IMG/VR virus record: IMGVR_UViG_3300035698_004036
Span: 1 to 32,970 of that record
Source: a virus
Direction: 5' to 3' (one strand)
Length of the DNA: 32,970 bases
Every line of letters starts with the position of its first letter. Position 1 is the stretch's first letter. A model generated the notes under the pieces. The model saw nothing but the letters and a program-made list of their open reading frames with translations, was not told the DNA's origin and did not search any database. Below, in pieces: positions 3,668 to 32,505 of this stretch. Made by a program: the position numbers and the translations under genes.

Positions 3668-3845
3668 TGTCGGCCTCCTTTGTCCAGTGTGATACAGAAC
3701 TTCCCGGCAACATTCTACGACTAAAACCAGCCTCTATGTACTTTTTATTGCAAGAATAGCTCCATACAAAAAGCATTCCCAAGCATAGAACTATTGAGGC
3801 AACCACAATAGACACGACTGTTAGTTTGTATTTTTCTTCTGCCAT
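3660..3845 (-). CDS. one-span membrane protein beside the lysozyme-like gene
   Basis: 61 residues: a short charged N-terminus (MAEEKYK), one hydrophobic span at about residues 8-29 (LTVVSIVVASIVLCLGMLFVW), then a polar tail with YIEAGFSRRMLPGSS. ATG 3845 has AAAAGGAG upstream and lies inside the last 25 nt of the lysozyme-like gene. A small membrane protein next to a peptidoglycan hydrolase could be part of a lysis cassette (holin-like or spanin-like), but there is no lipobox and only one span. The lysis role is inference. Confidence 0.65.
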   Translation of the reverse strand: MAEEKYKLTVVSIVVASIVLCLGMLFVWSYSCNKKYIEAGFSRRMLPGSSVSHWTKEADND

Positions 3846-4258
3846 GATTTCATACTCCTTTTAACTTTTATCCAATATTTCTTAGTACACTCTTTTTTAT
3901 AGCCATTCCCGCCCCCGTTATGGATTCTCGCCATATCCTGAAGCGTAGGCTCGCGTTTAAGCCTCTTTTCCGTCGCATAGTGCCGAATATACACCTTAAC
4001 CATTTCTCGGCTTAGAATGGGACTGAGGCGGTCTGAATAAGTATACCTATCCTCTCCCAGAATTCTATTAACATCATCGACGTAAATCTTCCATATCTGA
4101 AACGAGCCGACAGCGTTGCCGTTATCGCCCACAGCGTCAGCCTTACCGCCCGATTCAACCTGCTCGATAGCGTCTAAAAGGCGGCTGGGGGTATTAGCCC
4201 CAGCTACCGTACAAAGGAGGAGTGATGTGAAGATTGCTATACGTTTAATGTGTTTCAT
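3821..4258 (-). CDS. secreted lysozyme/lytic transglycosylase-like protein
   Basis: 145 residues. The N-terminus (MKHIKRIAIFTSLLLCTVAGA) is a typical Sec signal: basic, hydrophobic, then a small-residue cleavage site near residue 21. The mature part has IEQVESGG with a probable catalytic Glu at 35, DAVGDNGNAVGSFQIWKIYVDDV (40-63), which matches the G-x-x-G-x-F/M-Q-I layout of goose-type/SLT lysozyme-like folds, and ARIHNGGGNGY (110-120). It should cleave peptidoglycan in the periplasm, most likely as an endolysin exported without a holin or as a cell-wall remodelling factor. AAGGTAAC precedes ATG 4258. Confidence 0.75.
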   Translation of the reverse strand: MKHIKRIAIFTSLLLCTVAGANTPSRLLDAIEQVESGGKADAVGDNGNAVGSFQIWKIYVDDVNRILGEDRYTYSDRLSPILSREMVKVYIRHYATEKRLKREPTLQDMARIHNGGGNGYKKECTKKYWIKVKRSMKSWQKKNTN

Positions 4259-4262
4259 AGTG

Positions 4263-4622
4263 TTACCTTTTTCTATTAAGTCGCTGTATTTTTTGATAGA
4301 ATTTTCGCGGGTCGTCTTGCCAACTTACATTACCCTCACACCAATACCTTCTCAGCTTTGGATTTAATAATCTTGCAGGGCAATTTGTACAAATATGTTG
4401 GCCTACTTTATCTTTTCGGTATGAGTATTCGCAAAAGGGACAATCATTTTCAAGCCAGCTATGGGTAGCCCAGTCCTCCCATTGCTTTTTATTCTTTTCA
4501 AGCCATAGTTCCTTTAGCACATCATTTGAATCTTTAGAACCATTTTTAACTTCTTTGGCTATCCATTTCCACATTGCGAGACACAACGACCATGCTCTAT
4601 TAAGTGTTAATTTTTTGCTCAT
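4263..4622 (-). CDS. hypothetical zinc-binding protein
   Basis: 119 residues. The first half is helical and Trp-rich (AWSLCLAMWKWIAKEV, WLEKNKKQWEDWATHSW). A central four-Cys site (CPFCEYS... CTNC) looks like a zinc ribbon, and the tail is basic. AAAGGG precedes ATG 4622; the site overlaps the 3' end of the putative structured RNA/terminator just upstream. Function unknown. Confidence 0.7.
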   Translation of the reverse strand: MSKKLTLNRAWSLCLAMWKWIAKEVKNGSKDSNDVLKELWLEKNKKQWEDWATHSWLENDCPFCEYSYRKDKVGQHICTNCPARLLNPKLRRYWCEGNVSWQDDPRKFYQKIQRLNRKR

Positions 4623-4636
4623 AATTTACCCTTTCT

Positions 4637-4663
4637 AAAATGGGGTGGCTCTCTAACCACCCC
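4637..4663 (-). terminator. putative terminator of the structured RNA
   Basis: On the minus strand GGGGTGG (4657-4663) pairs with CCACCCC (4642-4648) around an 8-nt loop and is followed by ATTTT (4641-4637). The T tract is short, so it may attenuate rather than stop transcription. It lies just before the ribosome binding site of the gene starting at 4622. Confidence 0.5.
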
Positions 4664-4881
4664 GAAGGAGGATGATGACTTTTAAAAAGCGTTTAGACCA
4701 GCCTTTTGCCGTCAATTTGTCAACCCTACAAACATTTGGACATCATAGAGAGGTCTTTGTAGGTGTTTGACGGTTAGCTTTCGCTGGCTGGCCTTGCGCT
4801 CGACCGGACATTTCCAGTCCCATTATTTACTTTTTAAAGCTTTGGCGGCTCAAGCCGTCGCACGGGATAATACCGCCTTAG

Positions 4882-4906
4882 CTATTCAATTTTAAAGTGT
4901 GATAGG
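4882..4906 (-). repeat. 25-nt direct repeat, copy 1
   Basis: Perfect 25-base direct repeat of 4962-4986, offset by exactly 80 nt. It contains AGTGTGATAG, one arm of the long hairpin 4896-4963. Confidence 0.85.
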
Positions 4907-4961
4907 CATCCAGAACTTCACTCGCTCAACCGGATATCAACCGGATTCTGCTACTATCACA

Positions 4962-4986
4962 CTATTCAATTTTAAAGTGTGATAGG
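4962..4986 (-). repeat. 25-nt direct repeat, copy 2
   Basis: Second copy of the repeat at 4882-4906. Its AGTGTGATAG arm (4976-4985) can pair with CTATCACACT at 5036-5045, or alternatively with 4954-4963 across a 12-nt A/T loop. Confidence 0.85.
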
Positions 4987-5254
4987 ACTGCCTCGCTTCT
5001 GGAGGAGCAGACTCCATATCATGTTCATGTGCCATCTATCACACTTATTAACTTGTCAATATTGGGGCGGTTAGTTCGATACATTCTAACCGCCCCCTGT
5101 GTATGCAACCTACGGAACGCCCGTAGAGTAAGGTTATTGGGGGCTGAGTTCGCCCAACCCCCGAAGTTTCAACCTACCGACCACCTGTAGGATTTAAGCG
5201 GGCTAACTTTTGATTAAAAATAAATAATCCCGCTTTATTAAATTGTAAAAGAGA

Positions 5255-5605
5255 TTAAACTTTTTCTTGTTTCTGGTAATCCCAGTAGCGGGTAAAAGTA
5301 GCACTGTGTGCCAAAGTATTAAATTCATCTTGCGTTATACTGTTTGTCGCTTTAACAAGGTGACTACCACTCCACAAAGAACCGAGTTTAAGATTTGTGA
5401 GCGACACACGGACTTTATTAAGAGGGTGATATTGGACAGATAAGATATACTTTTCTCCACCGTCCTTTTTAAACCTATCCCCTACAGAATAGGTAGGCTC
5501 GGTGTCCTCAATCGCTTTCAAGAGCCTTGTGGCCTCATCCTGTAACTTCTGTCGGTCATTCTGATTCTGCTCTAATTGAGCAAGTAACATTTCTTTTTCT
5601 TTCAT
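5255..5605 (-). CDS. hypothetical protein with N-terminal coiled coil
   Basis: 116 residues. Residues 1-35 are a Glu/Gln/Leu-rich coiled coil (MLLAQLEQNQNDRQKLQDEA...), followed by a beta-rich part (YSVGDRFKKDGGEKYILSVQ, VRVSLTNLKLGSLWSG). AAAGGAGC precedes ATG 5605. It is the first gene upstream of the structured RNA block. Function unknown. Confidence 0.7.
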   Translation of the reverse strand: MKEKEMLLAQLEQNQNDRQKLQDEATRLLKAIEDTEPTYSVGDRFKKDGGEKYILSVQYHPLNKVRVSLTNLKLGSLWSGSHLVKATNSITQDEFNTLAHSATFTRYWDYQKQEKV

Positions 5606-7459: not shown

Positions 7460-7623
7460 TTTATGCTCTCTTTCCGCAGGCTTTCAATACCTGCCTTAAA
7501 GATAATACTGGTTAGCTGGCTGAAATTCAGATATACCCCTGTTTGAGCGATATATTCAGCGTGAAATTTGCGGATAATCTCGCGGTTTTCACTATTTATA
7601 TTTACGGTTGTTTGTTTTGACAT
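7456..7623 (-). CDS. putative ribbon-helix-helix DNA-binding protein
   Basis: 55 residues. A short strand TTVNINSENRE is followed by helices (IIRKFHAEYIAQTG, SQLTSIIFKAGIESLRKE), the layout of small ribbon-helix-helix repressors. ATG 7623 was chosen because it has GCGAGG upstream and overlaps the preceding stop (TAATG); an upstream in-frame ATG at 7695 would lie deep in the preceding gene. Probably a transcription regulator of the phage leftward unit. Confidence 0.5.
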   Translation of the reverse strand: MSKQTTVNINSENREIIRKFHAEYIAQTGVYLNFSQLTSIIFKAGIESLRKESIK

Positions 7624-8978: not shown

Positions 8979-9188
8979 ATGGGGTATTATGGACAGAATA
9001 CGGTAATGGCAAGGATAAGAGCCAAGCAGCAAAGAGAGGAGGAGGCTAAAGAGCAAATAATGAATAAGATGATAACAGGGGACTCATGTACCAAGGTGGC
9101 GAAATGCTTTTGCAAGGCGTTTGGTTGGGTTCGATTCCCAAAGTCTCCAATAGGAGTAAATAATGGCATTAAGTCAAGAAAAGGCTAA
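8979..9188 (+). CDS. hypothetical small basic protein overlapping a tRNA-like gene
   Basis: 69 codons with AAGGCG before ATG 8979. Residues 10-33 form a charged helix (ARIRAKQQREEEAKEQIMNK). From about codon 34 the frame runs through the tRNA-like sequence at 9078-9149 and into the terminase small subunit start, so that part may not be under protein selection. Either the C-terminal half is spurious or the two overlap. Function unknown. Confidence 0.4.
   Translation: MGYYGQNTVMARIRAKQQREEEAKEQIMNKMITGDSCTKVAKCFCKAFGWVRFPKSPIGVNNGIKSRKG
9078..9149 (+). tRNA. tRNA-like gene, anticodon TGC (Ala by position), atypical D-arm
   Basis: The 72-nt layout fits a tRNA exactly: acceptor GGGGACT/AGTCTCC (9078-9084/9142-9148, one G-T pair), 19 nt for positions 8-26, anticodon stem 9104-9108/9116-9120 (two G-T pairs) with loop TTTGCAA giving anticodon TGC at 9111-9113, a 4-nt variable loop, and a perfect T-arm TTGGG-TTCGATT-CCCAA (9125-9141) with discriminator A. 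Weak points are that position 8 is C instead of T, the D-stem barely pairs, and no CCA is encoded. It may be a functional phage tRNA, a decayed one, or a host tRNA fragment. Confidence 0.5.
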
Positions 9189-14665: not shown

Positions 14666-15032
14666 AACCGCAGATGCGACTACTTCAGCCCCAACAATGT
14701 TTAAAGAGATTGAACAAGGTGAAAATGTAGCGCGAGGTTGTGTAGAGGTTATAGAGATTATTGCCTATGACGCAACTAAAAAACCGAGGCGATGTATTCC
14801 TGAAAAAGATGGAACTCCCGGAGAAATTAAAAAGGATAAAGATGGAAATATCCTGTATGAAGAAAAGGGCAGAGCGCCTTATTTCTGCCAAGACCACGAA
14901 GATTCAATGCTATTCAATGAGAAAAACCCAGAAGTAAGGACAGAAACATTCACTATCCAACTTAGAAAGACTACGGCTAAGAAGTATATTGACTCTCCAA
15001 GAAACATTGAAGCTTTTGAGGAGGTGAAATAA
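14643..15032 (+). CDS. hypothetical protein in head module
   Basis: 129 residues from ATG 14643, which has AAAGGAAA upstream; an in-frame ATG at 14628 is less well placed. Contains RRCIPEKDGTPGEIKKDKDG, a charged turn-rich stretch, and a C-terminal half with beta character (RTETFTIQLRKTTAKKYI). It overlaps the previous gene by 23 nt and abuts the scaffold start. Possibly a head assembly factor, by position only. Confidence 0.65.
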   Translation: MSTIGLAETADATTSAPTMFKEIEQGENVARGCVEVIEIIAYDATKKPRRCIPEKDGTPGEIKKDKDGNILYEEKGRAPYFCQDHEDSMLFNEKNPEVRTETFTIQLRKTTAKKYIDSPRNIEAFEEVK

Positions 15033-15910
15033 TGACTGACCTAATTGTAACGCCAGAAGTAACACCAGTTGAACCGGTGGCAGACCAAACCCAAGTAGTA
15101 GCTGATACAACGCAATACTTTGGTACTGACGGTGCTTTAAATGAAGGCTGGACGAGTACATTGCCAGAGGACATTAGGGACGAGAAGTCTTTAACGTCTT
15201 TTAAAACCATACAAGACCTTGCTAAGTCTAATGTTATGACAAAGAAGATGGTCGGTAAGAATACTATGGTAGTACCAAGTGAGACATCTACTGAAAGTGA
15301 ATGGGAAGAATATCACAAAGCTGGTGGTAGACCTGACACTTCTGCTGATTATGGTCTTGCCGCGCCTAAAGATTTTCCACCTGAATTTGCTGACGAGATA
15401 TTCCCAGCCGACAGAATAGCTAAATGGCAGGAGAGATTCTTTAAAGGTGGTATAAGCAAAAAAGCTGCTGATAATATTCTTTTAGAGTTTGGCAATGATA
15501 TGTTAGCTGATATACAAAGCGCTCAACAGGCGCAGGAAACTCAAAACGCTGAACTTTTAGGCGCTCTTTCTACTGAGTGGGGCGCTGCTATGGAACAAAA
15601 TAAACACCTCGGTAATATAGCGGTAGAAGAAGGGACTTTAGGGGATATAGATTTTAAGACTCGTCTTACAGAGAAGTTTGGGAATGACCCAGACTTCATA
15701 AGATACTCGTTTAATCTTGGAAATAAGTTTTCCGAGGGTAAATCTCCGAACCTTACAAATGTCCCAACTCCAGCAGACCATCAGGACGCAATATACGCTC
15801 TTATGGCTGACCCACTTTATACAAGTGGAACTGCACCTCAAAGAATGAAAATTGCCAATAAGATTATGGCGATAAGAAAACTTCAAAAGCCCGAACCGGT
15901 GACTACCTAA
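15032..15910 (+). CDS. capsid scaffold (assembly) protein
   Basis: 292 residues, acidic. It should line the inside of the procapsid and leave before DNA enters. Typical signs are a disordered Pro/Val/Thr-rich N-terminus, the block LPEDIRDEKSLTSFKTIQDLAKSNV...KKMVGKNT (about 44-78) followed by STESEWEEYHKAGGRPDTSADYGL, and long C-terminal helices ending in a basic RMKIANKIMAIRKLQK capsid-contact tail. A full AGGAGGTGA site precedes ATG 15032. Position between portal and capsid genes matches. Confidence 0.85.
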   Translation: MTDLIVTPEVTPVEPVADQTQVVADTTQYFGTDGALNEGWTSTLPEDIRDEKSLTSFKTIQDLAKSNVMTKKMVGKNTMVVPSETSTESEWEEYHKAGGRPDTSADYGLAAPKDFPPEFADEIFPADRIAKWQERFFKGGISKKAADNILLEFGNDMLADIQSAQQAQETQNAELLGALSTEWGAAMEQNKHLGNIAVEEGTLGDIDFKTRLTEKFGNDPDFIRYSFNLGNKFSEGKSPNLTNVPTPADHQDAIYALMADPLYTSGTAPQRMKIANKIMAIRKLQKPEPVTT

Positions 15911-27496: not shown

Positions 27497-28855
27497 ATGG
27501 ATAGATTCCCAATATATAGAAGTACAAAACAATTACCCGGCGTTGGCACTTCGGTAAGGGCTAATTTTAATACCGATACTGGCGAGGGTCAGGTGTGGGG
27601 GGCGATAGGTAATGCGGCAAATACTATTGCGGACTTAGGCGTTAAGTGGGATTTAATGGACGCGAAAGCCCAGCTTAATGAAAGTAGTATCGTCGCCAAT
27701 GATGTTATTAACGGATTTTATACCGAACTATCGGGGAATAATGACCCGAATACTTATGGTGAAAGCCTTAATAAACTGTACGAAAACTTAGATAGCATAT
27801 CCCCCAAAAATCCAAGAGCTAATAGTCTATTTAAAAAAAACATATCAGACAAAAAATTAAGTATAGCGAAAGACGTTAGGGGAATTGCGGAGAAAAAACT
27901 TGAATCTAATGTTCAATCGTCAGACTTTCTATTATTGCAAAAATCAAAGGAAACTGGAGACTTCTCTGACTATAAATCATCTGTAATTACAGGACAGAAA
28001 CTTGGAGTTTATACAGCGAAAGAAGCTGAATCTCTAATTGATTCTGCAAATAAAGACGCTGAAATATTGGTTGAAAAAAGGCTTGTATACGACAAAGAAC
28101 AGTTAGAACTCAAACAAGAATCGGATAGAGATGGGCTTGGACAAGCATTAGAAGATGGAACTATAGATTACGGAATGATAAACAATACTTCTCTTGATGA
28201 AAAAGAGCAGGATTCGTATCGTATAAAAATGGAGAATGAGGTTACGAGAAGGGGAACAGAGAAACCAATAGTTACAAATCAGTTAATTGCTGGTGATTTA
28301 GAAGCCGATGCCTATAAGATATGGATGGGTGCAGTTAATGTCAAAGATTTTAACAAGTCATTATCAAGAGCAAGATATGGAGATTTAATTGACGGGAAAT
28401 TCCAGTATGAATTTAAAGGTGTTTTAAGTGATACGCCTTTTATAGATGATACTACATATTCAAGCCTTAGAAGTCTTGCAACCAAAGAACTAAAGCAGTC
28501 ACAAGCTAAGGGTCTTAGTGATGCCTCATATTACGCCAAGGGTCAGTTGGTTAAGATACCAGACGACAAAGACGTATTTGCTCTTATCGCAGATTTCACA
28601 AAACAACAAAAGGAAAACGTACTAAATGAAAGACAGATACAACTTGAGAACTGGACGCAATTCAACCGGTCTATGAAATTATGGCAGACGGAGAATCCAG
28701 ATGCTACGGAGAGCGACTATTATATCGAGTCACACAAAAAGCTGCCTCTTTATATGAATAGAGAAGAAAGTGATATAACTGGAGTTAAGGTTCTTTCTGA
28801 AAAAGAAAAAAGACGACAACGATATTTAGAGTTAAAAGCAAAGGCTTCTAAATAA
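27497..28855 (+). CDS. internal virion protein C-like (T7 gp15-like)
   Basis: 452 residues, largely helical and charged, starting DRFPIYRSTKQLPGVGTSVRANF. Its place between the gp14-like and gp16-like genes and its helical repeat character fit the gp15 ejection-tube protein. AAGGAT precedes ATG 27497. It is smaller than T7 gp15 (about 750 residues), so it may lack a domain. Confidence 0.65.
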   Translation: MDRFPIYRSTKQLPGVGTSVRANFNTDTGEGQVWGAIGNAANTIADLGVKWDLMDAKAQLNESSIVANDVINGFYTELSGNNDPNTYGESLNKLYENLDSISPKNPRANSLFKKNISDKKLSIAKDVRGIAEKKLESNVQSSDFLLLQKSKETGDFSDYKSSVITGQKLGVYTAKEAESLIDSANKDAEILVEKRLVYDKEQLELKQESDRDGLGQALEDGTIDYGMINNTSLDEKEQDSYRIKMENEVTRRGTEKPIVTNQLIAGDLEADAYKIWMGAVNVKDFNKSLSRARYGDLIDGKFQYEFKGVLSDTPFIDDTTYSSLRSLATKELKQSQAKGLSDASYYAKGQLVKIPDDKDVFALIADFTKQQKENVLNERQIQLENWTQFNRSMKLWQTENPDATESDYYIESHKKLPLYMNREESDITGVKVLSEKEKRRQRYLELKAKASK

Positions 28856-31800
28856 TGCCACTTACATTGAAGGAAAAACTTGAATTAGATTCTCTTGATT
28901 CTGAATTTGGAACGACAAAATCAGAGGACAAAGAATTATTAGAACTTGAGTCTGAATTTGGGAATATAAATAATGATAAAGACCCCGAAAAAGTTATTAA
29001 CATTGCGTCAAAATTAGACCTATCAACACAAGAGGTTGAGGATAACTACGATGAGATGTCGTATATAACCGCTGGCGATGAGCCGGGCGTTGTAAAGAAA
29101 ATCTTTGAGAAATACATACGAGAACCAATAACTGAGCATACTGGACTTTTTGCACCAGATATACATTACAGAGAATCGAGCGATAAGAAGTACAGAGAAG
29201 AAGAAATGCTTAAAACCATTGCTGGCGCAACTGCACACTACGGCGCAAAATATGCTTCCGGTAGGGGATTATATCTTCCAGATTTAGCAGCTAAGTGGAT
29301 TGGCAAAAAATACTTTGACGGTGATACGGTAGCACCTAACACACTTGCCGAACTAGTAGACGAGTTTACAGATTTTCAGCCCACTCCAAAAGAAGAAGAA
29401 GCTGGACAGGTAGTTGGTTTCATTGGCGCGGTTAAAACGCTAACATCTCCAGTAACAGCAATGATTGGTACTATACCAGCAAGAAACGCATTAAAGTTAA
29501 TCTTATCATCTGGAATAATTTTTGCAACTGAAGATACTGCAAAGCAGGTCGTAGAATCTGTAAATACTGGCAAAGAAATAAACTGGGAAGGCGTTCATTT
29601 TAAGGCTGGATTAGGGGTGTTATGGGGAACTGGGCAAGTTGCAGTTTCCGCTGTATTTAGCAAAATGTTTCCACGAATGAAAGAGGTCTATGACGTAGGA
29701 AGCGTGAATGAAAAGGCACAGGTTCGCAAGGACATATCGACAGCCAGAGAGTATTACAAAAAACATGGCGAAATGCCACAAGACTTAATGGAGAAATACG
29801 TCTACGCCAAGTCGTCTCCTAAAGCCTCAAAGACCCCAATAGTTAAAGATTTCGGCAAGAATCCAGTGGTTATCTCTGAAACAGGCAAGTTCATTAAGCC
29901 TACCACCACAGTAGCCACAATCAAACCTAAAGCCACGAAACCCGCAGAGGGCATAGTTACTGCCCCTACAACTCAAAAGGGCTTAGAAGCGAAGCAGGGC
30001 GTTGAGGGGAAGGCCGTTGTAAGTAAAAAAACTGGTATGACAAACCACAAGTCTGCTGGATTCGTAGACCTGACTCCACTATCTAAGGCTGGTATTCAGG
30101 CGAGAACGACTTTAGAGGCTACTGGAAAGTCATTAACGCGATTTACTGGGTTATCCCCCGAAGTTCATCAGACGCTAATAGAGTTTGAAGAAGAAATGAA
30201 AAACATCCCCTACGTTGCAAGGGATATTGCCATAGAGAAGTATGGTAAAATTACACCAAAAGAAGAAAAATTGGTAGAAGATTTTATTGAACTTGGTGAA
30301 AAGACACCAAACCAGTTCAAGGATATGCCAAAAGAATTAAAGAAAATAGCAGATGAAATTATAGAAATAAACCAAGCCGTATCTGGTACATTAAGTGAGA
30401 TTGGATATAACGTAGATTGGCCTAACAGCCAGATAAAATTCCTTGAGAATAAACTTGAGAAACTTGGTGAGTTGGAAGTACCAGATATTGAGCAAGAATT
30501 CGCTATTGGGAAAGCTTTAGAACAATTAGAAAATGTTCGTTATCTCCATCACACCTACAATAAGCAATCGTTTGAGGGCGTAAAGAAAGTAAAACAAGCA
30601 CTAACGCAGAAGATAACAAAACGTCCGTCAGGTTTACTTGGCAGAAAATATCCTACTTATCTTGAGGCTGAACAGCAAGGATTAAAGAGGTCGTCACTTG
30701 CTACGTCTTATGCCGATATGATGGAATCTGTGTCTCGCGCAGTAGAGTCTGATAGGCTTATTAAAGCTATAAATGAAAATCCAAACCTTTCTATGTGGTC
30801 AAAAGAAGCACCGAGCGATTGGGTTACTGTCGATGAAAATATGTTCCCAGCAAGTGTATCACGACATGTAGACGCTAAATCTGGTAAGGTAATAAAGAAG
30901 ACAAGAAAATATCCATTACCACTTGCAGAAGCGTTAAAAGAATTAACTTACACCTCAGACGACCCATCACTTGTGAGAGTGTACGACGAGATAAACTTAG
31001 TTCTAAAGCAGATTGGTTTCTATAACCCACTTATAATGTCAAAGAATGATATGTTCCAGATGTGGCGAGTTGCTGGAATTAAGGGTAGCGTTAAAATGCC
31101 ACAGGCAGTTAAGATATTTGCCGAAAAGGGTGCTGAATATAACAAGTTACGCAAGGGCGGTTTGTTCAATAACGCTGTTAATCATACCGAAACTGCAAAA
31201 GCATTAACAGAACATATGATGATGACAATAAGAGAAACATCAGGCGAAAAGGTTGCAAGAATAGCTGGTGAACACTTAAGATTAAAAACATGGGTAAAAG
31301 ATTTAACTAAATTCAACGAGGTTACAACATGGAATCTTGATCAGATAATTCGCATATCAACATACAAAGCACTTGAAAATTCCAAGATGATGAAGGGTAT
31401 GACAGACTTTGAGAAGATAGAGTTTGCTAATGACGCACTTGTGAACTATGCTAAACTTCCAAAGGCAACAAAGAAGCATTTGAACAGAGTGGTATTTACC
31501 CCGTCTTATCGAGTTGGAAACTTTAGATTCTTATGGGGTCAATTAGCAAAACACCCTTGGCGTTTTAAAGGCCCAATACTCCGTACAGTGGGTTATAAGA
31601 TGTTTATTAAATACGGATTACCCGCAATGGTATCTGCTATTGTGTATTCTAAAGCAAAAGATATGCAGGTAAAAAGTGAAATGGGTTATAAGATTTCAGT
31701 ATATAATCCCGAAACAAATACAGATACAATCTACTCTCTATCTGACCCATTACTTGAGGGTGCAAAAATAACACAAAGACCAGTAAGACAAACAGTTGAG

Positions 31801-32505
31801 AATAACCTTGCGGCATTGCCGGCAGCAGCTTTAAGATATTTCAATGGTCCGAAACGCAGGAGTACAGACGACCCAGTTGGTGAGTTCTTTAAGCTTGGCA
31901 CTCCAATTTATAGAGATATTCAATTATGGAAATCTAAGGATAAGACTACTGCACAAAAAATACTCACACAATTTGCAATAGCTTATGTCTATAAAAGACA
32001 ACACAAAGAGCCAGTAGACGATAACGCTGTTGAGGCTTTATCAAAAGCACTTTCAATATGGACTGATTGGCGTATGCAGGCAGAAGATGTTAAGAGAATG
32101 TATAAAGGTAAGTCTGCTTACTTTGGTGCTGGTGGCGAGTTTGATAGGTTGATTCGTGAGTATAAACTCGAAAATGATGAATTAGAAAATGAAGTTGATA
32201 TGCACATTGAAAAGCTTTTCAGGGCTGGCAAAGACAAAGAAGCAATCGAATATGCAATGAATAGTGATAGATATAAAACCACCGAGGGAATATCTGGCAG
32301 GTATCTCAGGTCGCATGCGCCATTGGCTTATTACTGGAAAGAATTTCCAACGGAAGATAAAGCTAAGTTTATTTTATGGCTGAAAGATAAGGGTTATAAT
32401 GTTGACCTTAAAAATTTAAAAGACGGTAAGGTTTCAGATATGAATAAAGAAATCGAGAAACAACTGTTAAACTTAGAAAAAGCCACTAAGAAAGTATTAG
32501 AATAA
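28855..32505 (+). CDS. internal virion protein D-like (T7 gp16-like)
   Basis: 1216 residues, the giant ejection protein of podoviruses. The start is coupled to the previous stop (TAATG). N-terminal acidic helices, two hydrophobic segments (about 186-235 and 251-268), a Lys/Thr/Pro-rich linker (about 325-385), then long amphipathic helices. The N-terminal lytic transglycosylase domain of T7 gp16 is not seen. Expected to line the ejection channel through the inner membrane and possibly help translocate DNA. The next gene begins immediately after the stop. Confidence 0.7.
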   Translation: MPLTLKEKLELDSLDSEFGTTKSEDKELLELESEFGNINNDKDPEKVINIASKLDLSTQEVEDNYDEMSYITAGDEPGVVKKIFEKYIREPITEHTGLFAPDIHYRESSDKKYREEEMLKTIAGATAHYGAKYASGRGLYLPDLAAKWIGKKYFDGDTVAPNTLAELVDEFTDFQPTPKEEEAGQVVGFIGAVKTLTSPVTAMIGTIPARNALKLILSSGIIFATEDTAKQVVESVNTGKEINWEGVHFKAGLGVLWGTGQVAVSAVFSKMFPRMKEVYDVGSVNEKAQVRKDISTAREYYKKHGEMPQDLMEKYVYAKSSPKASKTPIVKDFGKNPVVISETGKFIKPTTTVATIKPKATKPAEGIVTAPTTQKGLEAKQGVEGKAVVSKKTGMTNHKSAGFVDLTPLSKAGIQARTTLEATGKSLTRFTGLSPEVHQTLIEFEEEMKNIPYVARDIAIEKYGKITPKEEKLVEDFIELGEKTPNQFKDMPKELKKIADEIIEINQAVSGTLSEIGYNVDWPNSQIKFLENKLEKLGELEVPDIEQEFAIGKALEQLENVRYLHHTYNKQSFEGVKKVKQALTQKITKRPSGLLGRKYPTYLEAEQQGLKRSSLATSYADMMESVSRAVESDRLIKAINENPNLSMWSKEAPSDWVTVDENMFPASVSRHVDAKSGKVIKKTRKYPLPLAEALKELTYTSDDPSLVRVYDEINLVLKQIGFYNPLIMSKNDMFQMWRVAGIKGSVKMPQAVKIFAEKGAEYNKLRKGGLFNNAVNHTETAKALTEHMMMTIRETSGEKVARIAGEHLRLKTWVKDLTKFNEVTTWNLDQIIRISTYKALENSKMMKGMTDFEKIEFANDALVNYAKLPKATKKHLNRVVFTPSYRVGNFRFLWGQLAKHPWRFKGPILRTVGYKMFIKYGLPAMVSAIVYSKAKDMQVKSEMGYKISVYNPETNTDTIYSLSDPLLEGAKITQRPVRQTVENNLAALPAAALRYFNGPKRRSTDDPVGEFFKLGTPIYRDIQLWKSKDKTTAQKILTQFAIAYVYKRQHKEPVDDNAVEALSKALSIWTDWRMQAEDVKRMYKGKSAYFGAGGEFDRLIREYKLENDELENEVDMHIEKLFRAGKDKEAIEYAMNSDRYKTTEGISGRYLRSHAPLAYYWKEFPTEDKAKFILWLKDKGYNVDLKNLKDGKVSDMNKEIEKQLLNLEKATKKVLE

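Follow-up and report, generated by a model that had tools for sequence, protein, structure and literature searches.

In a phage whose connector is of the podovirus type (PF12236), a block of about 600 nt (approximately 4636-5254) is, on good support, a structured non-coding RNA of the minus strand, and one of its modules, at 4763-4724, bears a resemblance to abiF RNA that is probably real. AbiF is a phage-defence toxin, a HEPN ribonuclease regarded as the ancestor of Cas13, which is kept inactive by a bound abiF RNA hairpin. On balance, we lean towards reading the block as a leftward chain of RNA modules whose abiF-type RNA would disarm the AbiF of the host, that is, as a mimic of its antitoxin. 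Coordinates throughout are those of the window, i.e. the whole stretch of viral DNA analysed (32,970 nt).

A structured non-coding block on the minus strand

Leftward genes flank the block on either side (5255-5605 and 4263-4622), and the original prediction that some 600 nt carry no supported gene is borne out for 4623-5254, where gene evidence was checked across the block. The minus strand folds at -219 kcal/mol (z -11.3, with 0 of 20 shuffles as good) and the plus strand at -204 kcal/mol (z -5.9), which, together with the direction of both flanking genes, upholds the orientation that had been proposed. When the whole 33-kb window was scanned for folds (876 windows, both strands), three of the four best windows fell in the block on the minus strand, with 5026-5175 at rank 1 (z -5.7), and 5101-5250 and 4651-4800 at ranks 3 and 4; the runner-up, 30226-30375 on the plus strand (z -5.3), lies within a 1216-aa ORF (28855-32505). 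Tandem inverted repeats and AT-rich spacers might also be expected of a DNA element, i.e. a replication origin or recombination site in which the inverted repeats act as DNA, but this is barely credible in view of the strong strand asymmetry of the fold, in the window as in the related phage L056 described below, and of G-U pairs on the minus strand that turn into mismatches on the plus strand (5139-5162; 4786-4794/4695-4703).

Elsewhere in the window, a tRNA-Ala(TGC) at 9078-9149 (plus strand) opens the rightward gene cluster, and a match to cyano_het_sRNA at 15642-15699 (plus strand; 31.2 bits, below the cut-off of 35.7, E 0.021), which sits inside an ORF (15032-15910), is probably a chance hairpin.

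The idea of one large non-coding RNA, perhaps of the ROOL or GOLLD kind, has fared unevenly: a structured minus-strand non-coding RNA is well supported, a single RNA of these classes is not, as cmscan gave no match to ROOL, GOLLD, OLE or HEARO at E<=1 in the 33-kb window or at E<=5 in the block. Size and presence in phages are shared with ROOL and GOLLD, whereas the block looks modular and not like one fold. Searches for homologues, seeded with the proteins of the flanking genes, the terminase, an Erf-like protein and the lysozyme, returned an identical contig (L003) and one informative phage (L056). Since the sole homologue of the block that was found, in L003, is 100% identical, covariation of the whole block is uninformative. 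When phages and plasmids were searched with the block by BLAST, nothing meaningful came up.

A run of modules and linkers

The block reads best as some ten structured modules in a row, a part of them separated by A/U linkers (Table 1). The helices named in the original prediction lie where it had placed them, including the 11-bp hairpin at 5064-5096, the GCGAAAGC hairpin and the closed multi-branch domain, whose 9-nt closing arms are perfect. The two tandem 70-nt hairpins (X and Y) that it described are also present, but their four arms (10/11 nt, AGUGUGAUAG/CUAUCACACU) can pair in a nested fashion as well, and this alternative is predicted to be the more stable (-50.1 vs -45.8 kcal/mol). The terminator-like end did not survive scrutiny, since the hairpin concerned (4663-4642) has no U-run, fails the terminator scan and is not counted as an intrinsic terminator. 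No good promoter was seen at the 5' end of the block. The loop of the abiF-type hairpin, CUCUCUA (4752-4746, minus strand), is perfectly complementary to UAGAGAG (4655-4649, minus strand) in the loop region of module 10, and a 7-bp loop-loop contact would be possible from this complementarity.

Table 1. Structured modules, linkers and the abiF-type element of the block
Feature	Position	Strand	Description
Module 1	5196-5235	minus	hairpin AAGCGGG...CCCGCTT
Module 2	5173-5191	minus	CUAC-type hairpin; repeated in module 4 (repeat D3, 81%)
Module 3	5139-5162	minus	10-bp hairpin including two G-U pairs
Module 4	5109-5127	minus	CUAC-type hairpin
Module 5	5064-5097	minus	perfect 11-bp hairpin
Linker variant before X	5045-5059	minus	UUGACAAGUUAAUAA; repeat D1
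Module 6 (X)	4975-5046	minus	tandem long hairpin, 11-bp ends AAGUGUGAUAG/CUAUCACACUU
Linker between X and Y	4963-4977	minus	UUUAAAAUUGAAU; 25-nt exact repeat D2
Module 7 (Y)	4895-4964	minus	tandem long hairpin; ends as in X, inside differs
Linker after Y	4882-4897	minus	UUUAAAAUUGAAUAG; 25-nt exact repeat D2
Module 8	4839-4884	minus	hairpin GGCGGU...GCCGCC
Linker	4823-4838	minus	UUUAAAAAGUAAAUAA; common to window and L056
Module 9	4681-4838	minus	multi-branch domain; contains the abiF-type hairpin
abiF-type RNA element	4763-4724	minus	CCUACAAA-GAC-CUCUCUAUGAU-GUC-CAAAUG-UUUGUAGG
Module 10	4642-4663	minus	terminal GC hairpin without U-run

Phage L056 offers a sister block. Its lysozyme is related to that of the window (3821-4258; 59% in a pairwise alignment), and directly upstream of it there is a gap of about 420 nt, gene-free on the lysozyme strand, that folds with z -6.3 on this strand and -2.4 on the opposite one. 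The gap starts with an 11-of-12 promoter (TTGACA-16-TATATT), and its first module (7469-7555), for which Rfam gives no match, is a pseudoknot of 11 bp (7469-7479/7532-7542) and 12 bp (7494-7505/7544-7555). The modules of the two blocks are unlike each other, and a covariance-model search finds no abiF hairpin in the L056 block, but the linkers agree, since the two blocks have TTTAAAAAGTAAATA and AATAGYGTGATAGTAGC in common. The best linker match was reached in 2 of 1000 shuffles, and a pair of matches that both equal the second-best occurred in 1 of 1000, while none of the other loci examined has two or more sites for a regular expression of the linker. Apart from the lysozyme, tblastx detects no gene shared by L056 and the window.

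Other searches with pieces of the block brought up candidates that were set aside. The pattern of the X/Y arms recurs in 18 other contigs, all with one unrelated marine-phage sequence and a 41-nt spacer, and was treated as chance. These viral contigs (L061-L079 except L078) share AGTGTGATAG-41 nt-CTATCACACT within an AT-rich stretch with GCGGACACTA repeats, for which annotated phages give no match. A scan for the D3 motif gave two single-copy matches beyond the known contig, apparently within genes; the linker pattern had 20 matches in bacterial genomes, apparently in coding or AT-rich DNA and taken as chance; and a match of CUGGAAAUGUC to phage S-SRM01 was also judged to be chance.

These observations bear on two further readings. 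Many helices across 600 nt and a very low z on one strand could befit a new class of large ornate RNA that works as a single unit, in the manner supposed for ROOL/GOLLD-type RNAs, and in which the abiF likeness would be incidental (its E over all Rfam is only about 0.05). We find this rather unlikely, because the modules are self-contained and joined by repeated A/U linkers that L056 uses between other modules, because no long helix closes the block (there is weak terminal pairing only), and because the two covariance models described below, RF03085 and R1, both give the abiF site their top rank in the window. Alternatively, the structures might serve the operon in cis (processing, antitermination or attenuation) and yield no trans-acting product, which would fit a co-directional cluster of small genes and a block without a good promoter or terminator of its own; RNase III sites, too, can be long hairpins. 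Such a role is distinctly improbable, as some ten different modules over 600 nt far exceed what such sites need, an 11-of-12 promoter stands exactly at the start of the L056 block, and cis elements leave the abiF-type loop unexplained.

An abiF-type element in module 9

A permissive cmscan of 901 nt against all of Rfam matched RF03085 (abiF RNA) at 4763-4724 on the minus strand with 25.3 bits, short of the gathering cut-off of 37, and E 0.049, a corrected value (about 0.05) that reflects the choice among 4227 families; unrelated families appeared alongside at E 0.17 and 0.47. Run alone against the whole window, RF03085 places the same site first at E 4.2e-4 (the next best scores 9.9 bits), and its highest score in 28 other viral contigs is 12.7 bits. 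The layout of the consensus is reproduced in full, with a 6-bp outer stem, an unpaired A, a 3-bp inner stem, an 11-nt loop and a 6-nt 3' bulge, and insertions of 1 and 2 nt lengthen the outer stem. In manual counts on the alignment, 15 of the 18 unpaired core letters match the consensus; the nine pairs are all preserved and standard, five of them with changed letters. Of 13 positions that do not vary among 14 other abiF RNAs, ten are unchanged here; two of the three differences make up one compensated pair (inner G-C to A-U), and the third turns a loop C into U. An unconstrained fold of the block yields this hairpin, 3' bulge included, with pair probabilities of 0.95-1.0 in the outer stem.

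A second model, R1, built from the 14 other abiF RNAs, also ranks 4763-4724 above every other site of the window (16.7 bits, E 0.01; next 9.4), although it is less discriminating than RF03085, since an apparent false site in phage Bromden reaches 15.5 bits with it. Bacterial abiF matches in which the motif was read as reverse complement (L111, L115-L117 and L120) were excluded from the model. When the abiF RNAs are aligned together with the window element, covariation is strong: seven of nine pairs show double changes, a number reached in none of 500 shuffles, in an alignment that was itself fitted to the abiF structure. Because the element is divergent and stays below the Rfam cut-off, we use the name abiF-type and do not count it among the members of RF03085.

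The AbiF toxin family, PF07751 (Abi_2), is absent from the whole window, and the element thus departs from the bacterial systems in having no abiF (Abi_2) gene downstream of the RNA. A type III (ToxIN-type) toxin-antitoxin locus made of the block and the downstream 119-aa gene deserves mention, since the order of RNA, hairpin and gene resembles that of ToxIN-type loci (layout as in PMC12373285), but it is very improbable. The 119-aa product has no match in Pfam, PHROG or PADLOC and none to a toxin family, and looks like a Cys-rich zinc-binding phage protein; its gene is not conserved beside the L056 block, where the lysozyme comes next; and the window is also devoid of PF07751.

Orphan abiF RNAs in other phages

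The window phage is not alone in carrying such an RNA. A BLAST search of annotated phages with the abiF consensus brought up 74 records; near-identical mycobacteriophages and duplicates make up many of these, and some records, as in Rhizobium phages, have candidate partial matches only. Fourteen phage stretches, plus S-CREM1, were checked with Rfam: 12 records are above the RF03085 cut-off (Thibault, Acj61, CGphi29, PZL-Ah8, S-SZBM1, T7-Ah, CRP-143, S-SRM01, PT2, Bromden, MrMagoo and S-CREM1), phage Mimi reaches 33 bits, under the 37-bit cut-off, and the stretches from P818 and MT836731 have no abiF match at E<=0.05. The 13 records with an abiF RNA span T7-like, T4-like, cyano-, myco-, Arthrobacter, Roseobacter and Salicola phages, and PF07751 is absent from every one of them, as searched over whole records. 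Genomic settings recur as well: the RNA is found among tRNA genes in six phages (S-CREM1, S-SZBM1, Mimi, Bromden, MrMagoo and S-SRM01). In three Aeromonas T7-like phages (L125, L127 and L132) it occupies the same place, with the connector gene on one side and the scaffold gene on the other, and in Roseobacter phage CRP-143 it comes after the scaffold gene.

Two candidates for closer parallels were rejected. The 807-nt gap that bears the abiF RNA in Salicola phage CGphi29, considered as a parallel ornate RNA, has a fold that is ordinary for its composition (z -1.35), and phage sk1, considered as a possible known carrier of an anti-AbiF RNA, lacks the abiF motif. Going by a title cited in PMC12737573, DNA of sk1 reportedly shields phage 712 against AbiF, and the missing motif counts against the decoy reading given below. 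Two of the phage stretches hold RNAs of another kind, namely a DUF3800-IV-like RNA in Mycobacterium phage Thibault (2881-2962; 42.9 bits, below its own cut-off) and a DUF3800-VIII RNA in Bacteriophage sp. MT836731 (1549-1612; 76.7 bits). As the DUF3800 protein (PF12686) is absent from the Thibault genome and from the 16.8-kb MT836731 fragment, they may be a further case of a protein-linked RNA whose partner is missing from the phage.

A putative decoy for host AbiF

In Clostridioides difficile, abiF RNA neutralises AbiF in cis and in trans by binding it directly (PMC12373285), and a reported structure of the AbiF-RNA complex has bulge nucleotides blocking the RNase activity (PMC12737573). Since neutralisation works in trans, an orphan copy most likely acts, by analogy, as an RNA decoy against host AbiF. 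We propose that the block is transcribed leftward together with the neighbouring gene cluster, and that the transcript would string together independent structured RNA modules, some of them connected by A/U-rich linkers at which processing may occur. In this chain, 4763-4724 would be a divergent abiF-type RNA which, as the phage carries the RNA and not the toxin, would occupy host AbiF during infection and keep it silent. Abortive infection would thus be prevented, to the benefit of the phage.

Set beside the abiF RNAs themselves (RF03085; RCd22 of C. difficile, AbiFr of PbAbiF), the window element has the same outer stem, unpaired A and 3-bp inner stem, a CUCUC-x-A-x-GAU loop and a 3' CAAAU bulge, but differs by its score, its inner A-U pair, the missing abiF gene and the larger branched domain around it. 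Precedents for such mimicry have been established experimentally. Pseudo-ToxI of phage PhiTE, an RNA mimic of the ToxIN antitoxin whose activity was shown experimentally (PMC3475682), is likewise a phage-borne RNA resembling the antitoxin of a protein-RNA abortive infection system, although it mimics ToxI instead of abiF RNA and consists of tandem 36-nt repeats (PMC3475682). Racr RNA anti-CRISPRs, also tested experimentally (PMC10651486), are like the window element solitary phage copies of an RNA component of host defence, but what they mimic are CRISPR repeats. The abiF RNA of cyanophage S-CREM1 (OP535465, 10531-10567) is comparable in that it belongs to a lytic phage without PF07751 and has other structured RNAs nearby (PMC9964418), and differs in scoring 52 bits and in lying between tRNA genes. 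As far as its accessible text goes, the S-CREM1 paper lists this RNA without assigning it a counter-defence role (PMC9964418), and a literature search, mostly outside subscription journals, found no description of such a role for phage abiF RNAs.

The remaining modules may be further RNA effectors. An extension of the decoy reading, possible though doubtful, is that RNA counter-defence elements make up the block as an array of cassettes, in which every module would be a decoy for a different RNA-dependent host system. Modules would be swapped between phages and held together by a common A/U linker, and abiF mimics would be one widespread cassette, often found amid phage tRNAs.

If phages of many kinds do carry abiF RNA without the toxin for this purpose, mimicry of antitoxin RNAs would be a common counter-defence strategy, which would explain part of the content of phage tRNA arrays and of the intergenic RNAs that have so far lacked an explanation. 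The function of such phage RNAs would then become directly testable by combining a short RNA with a known toxin.
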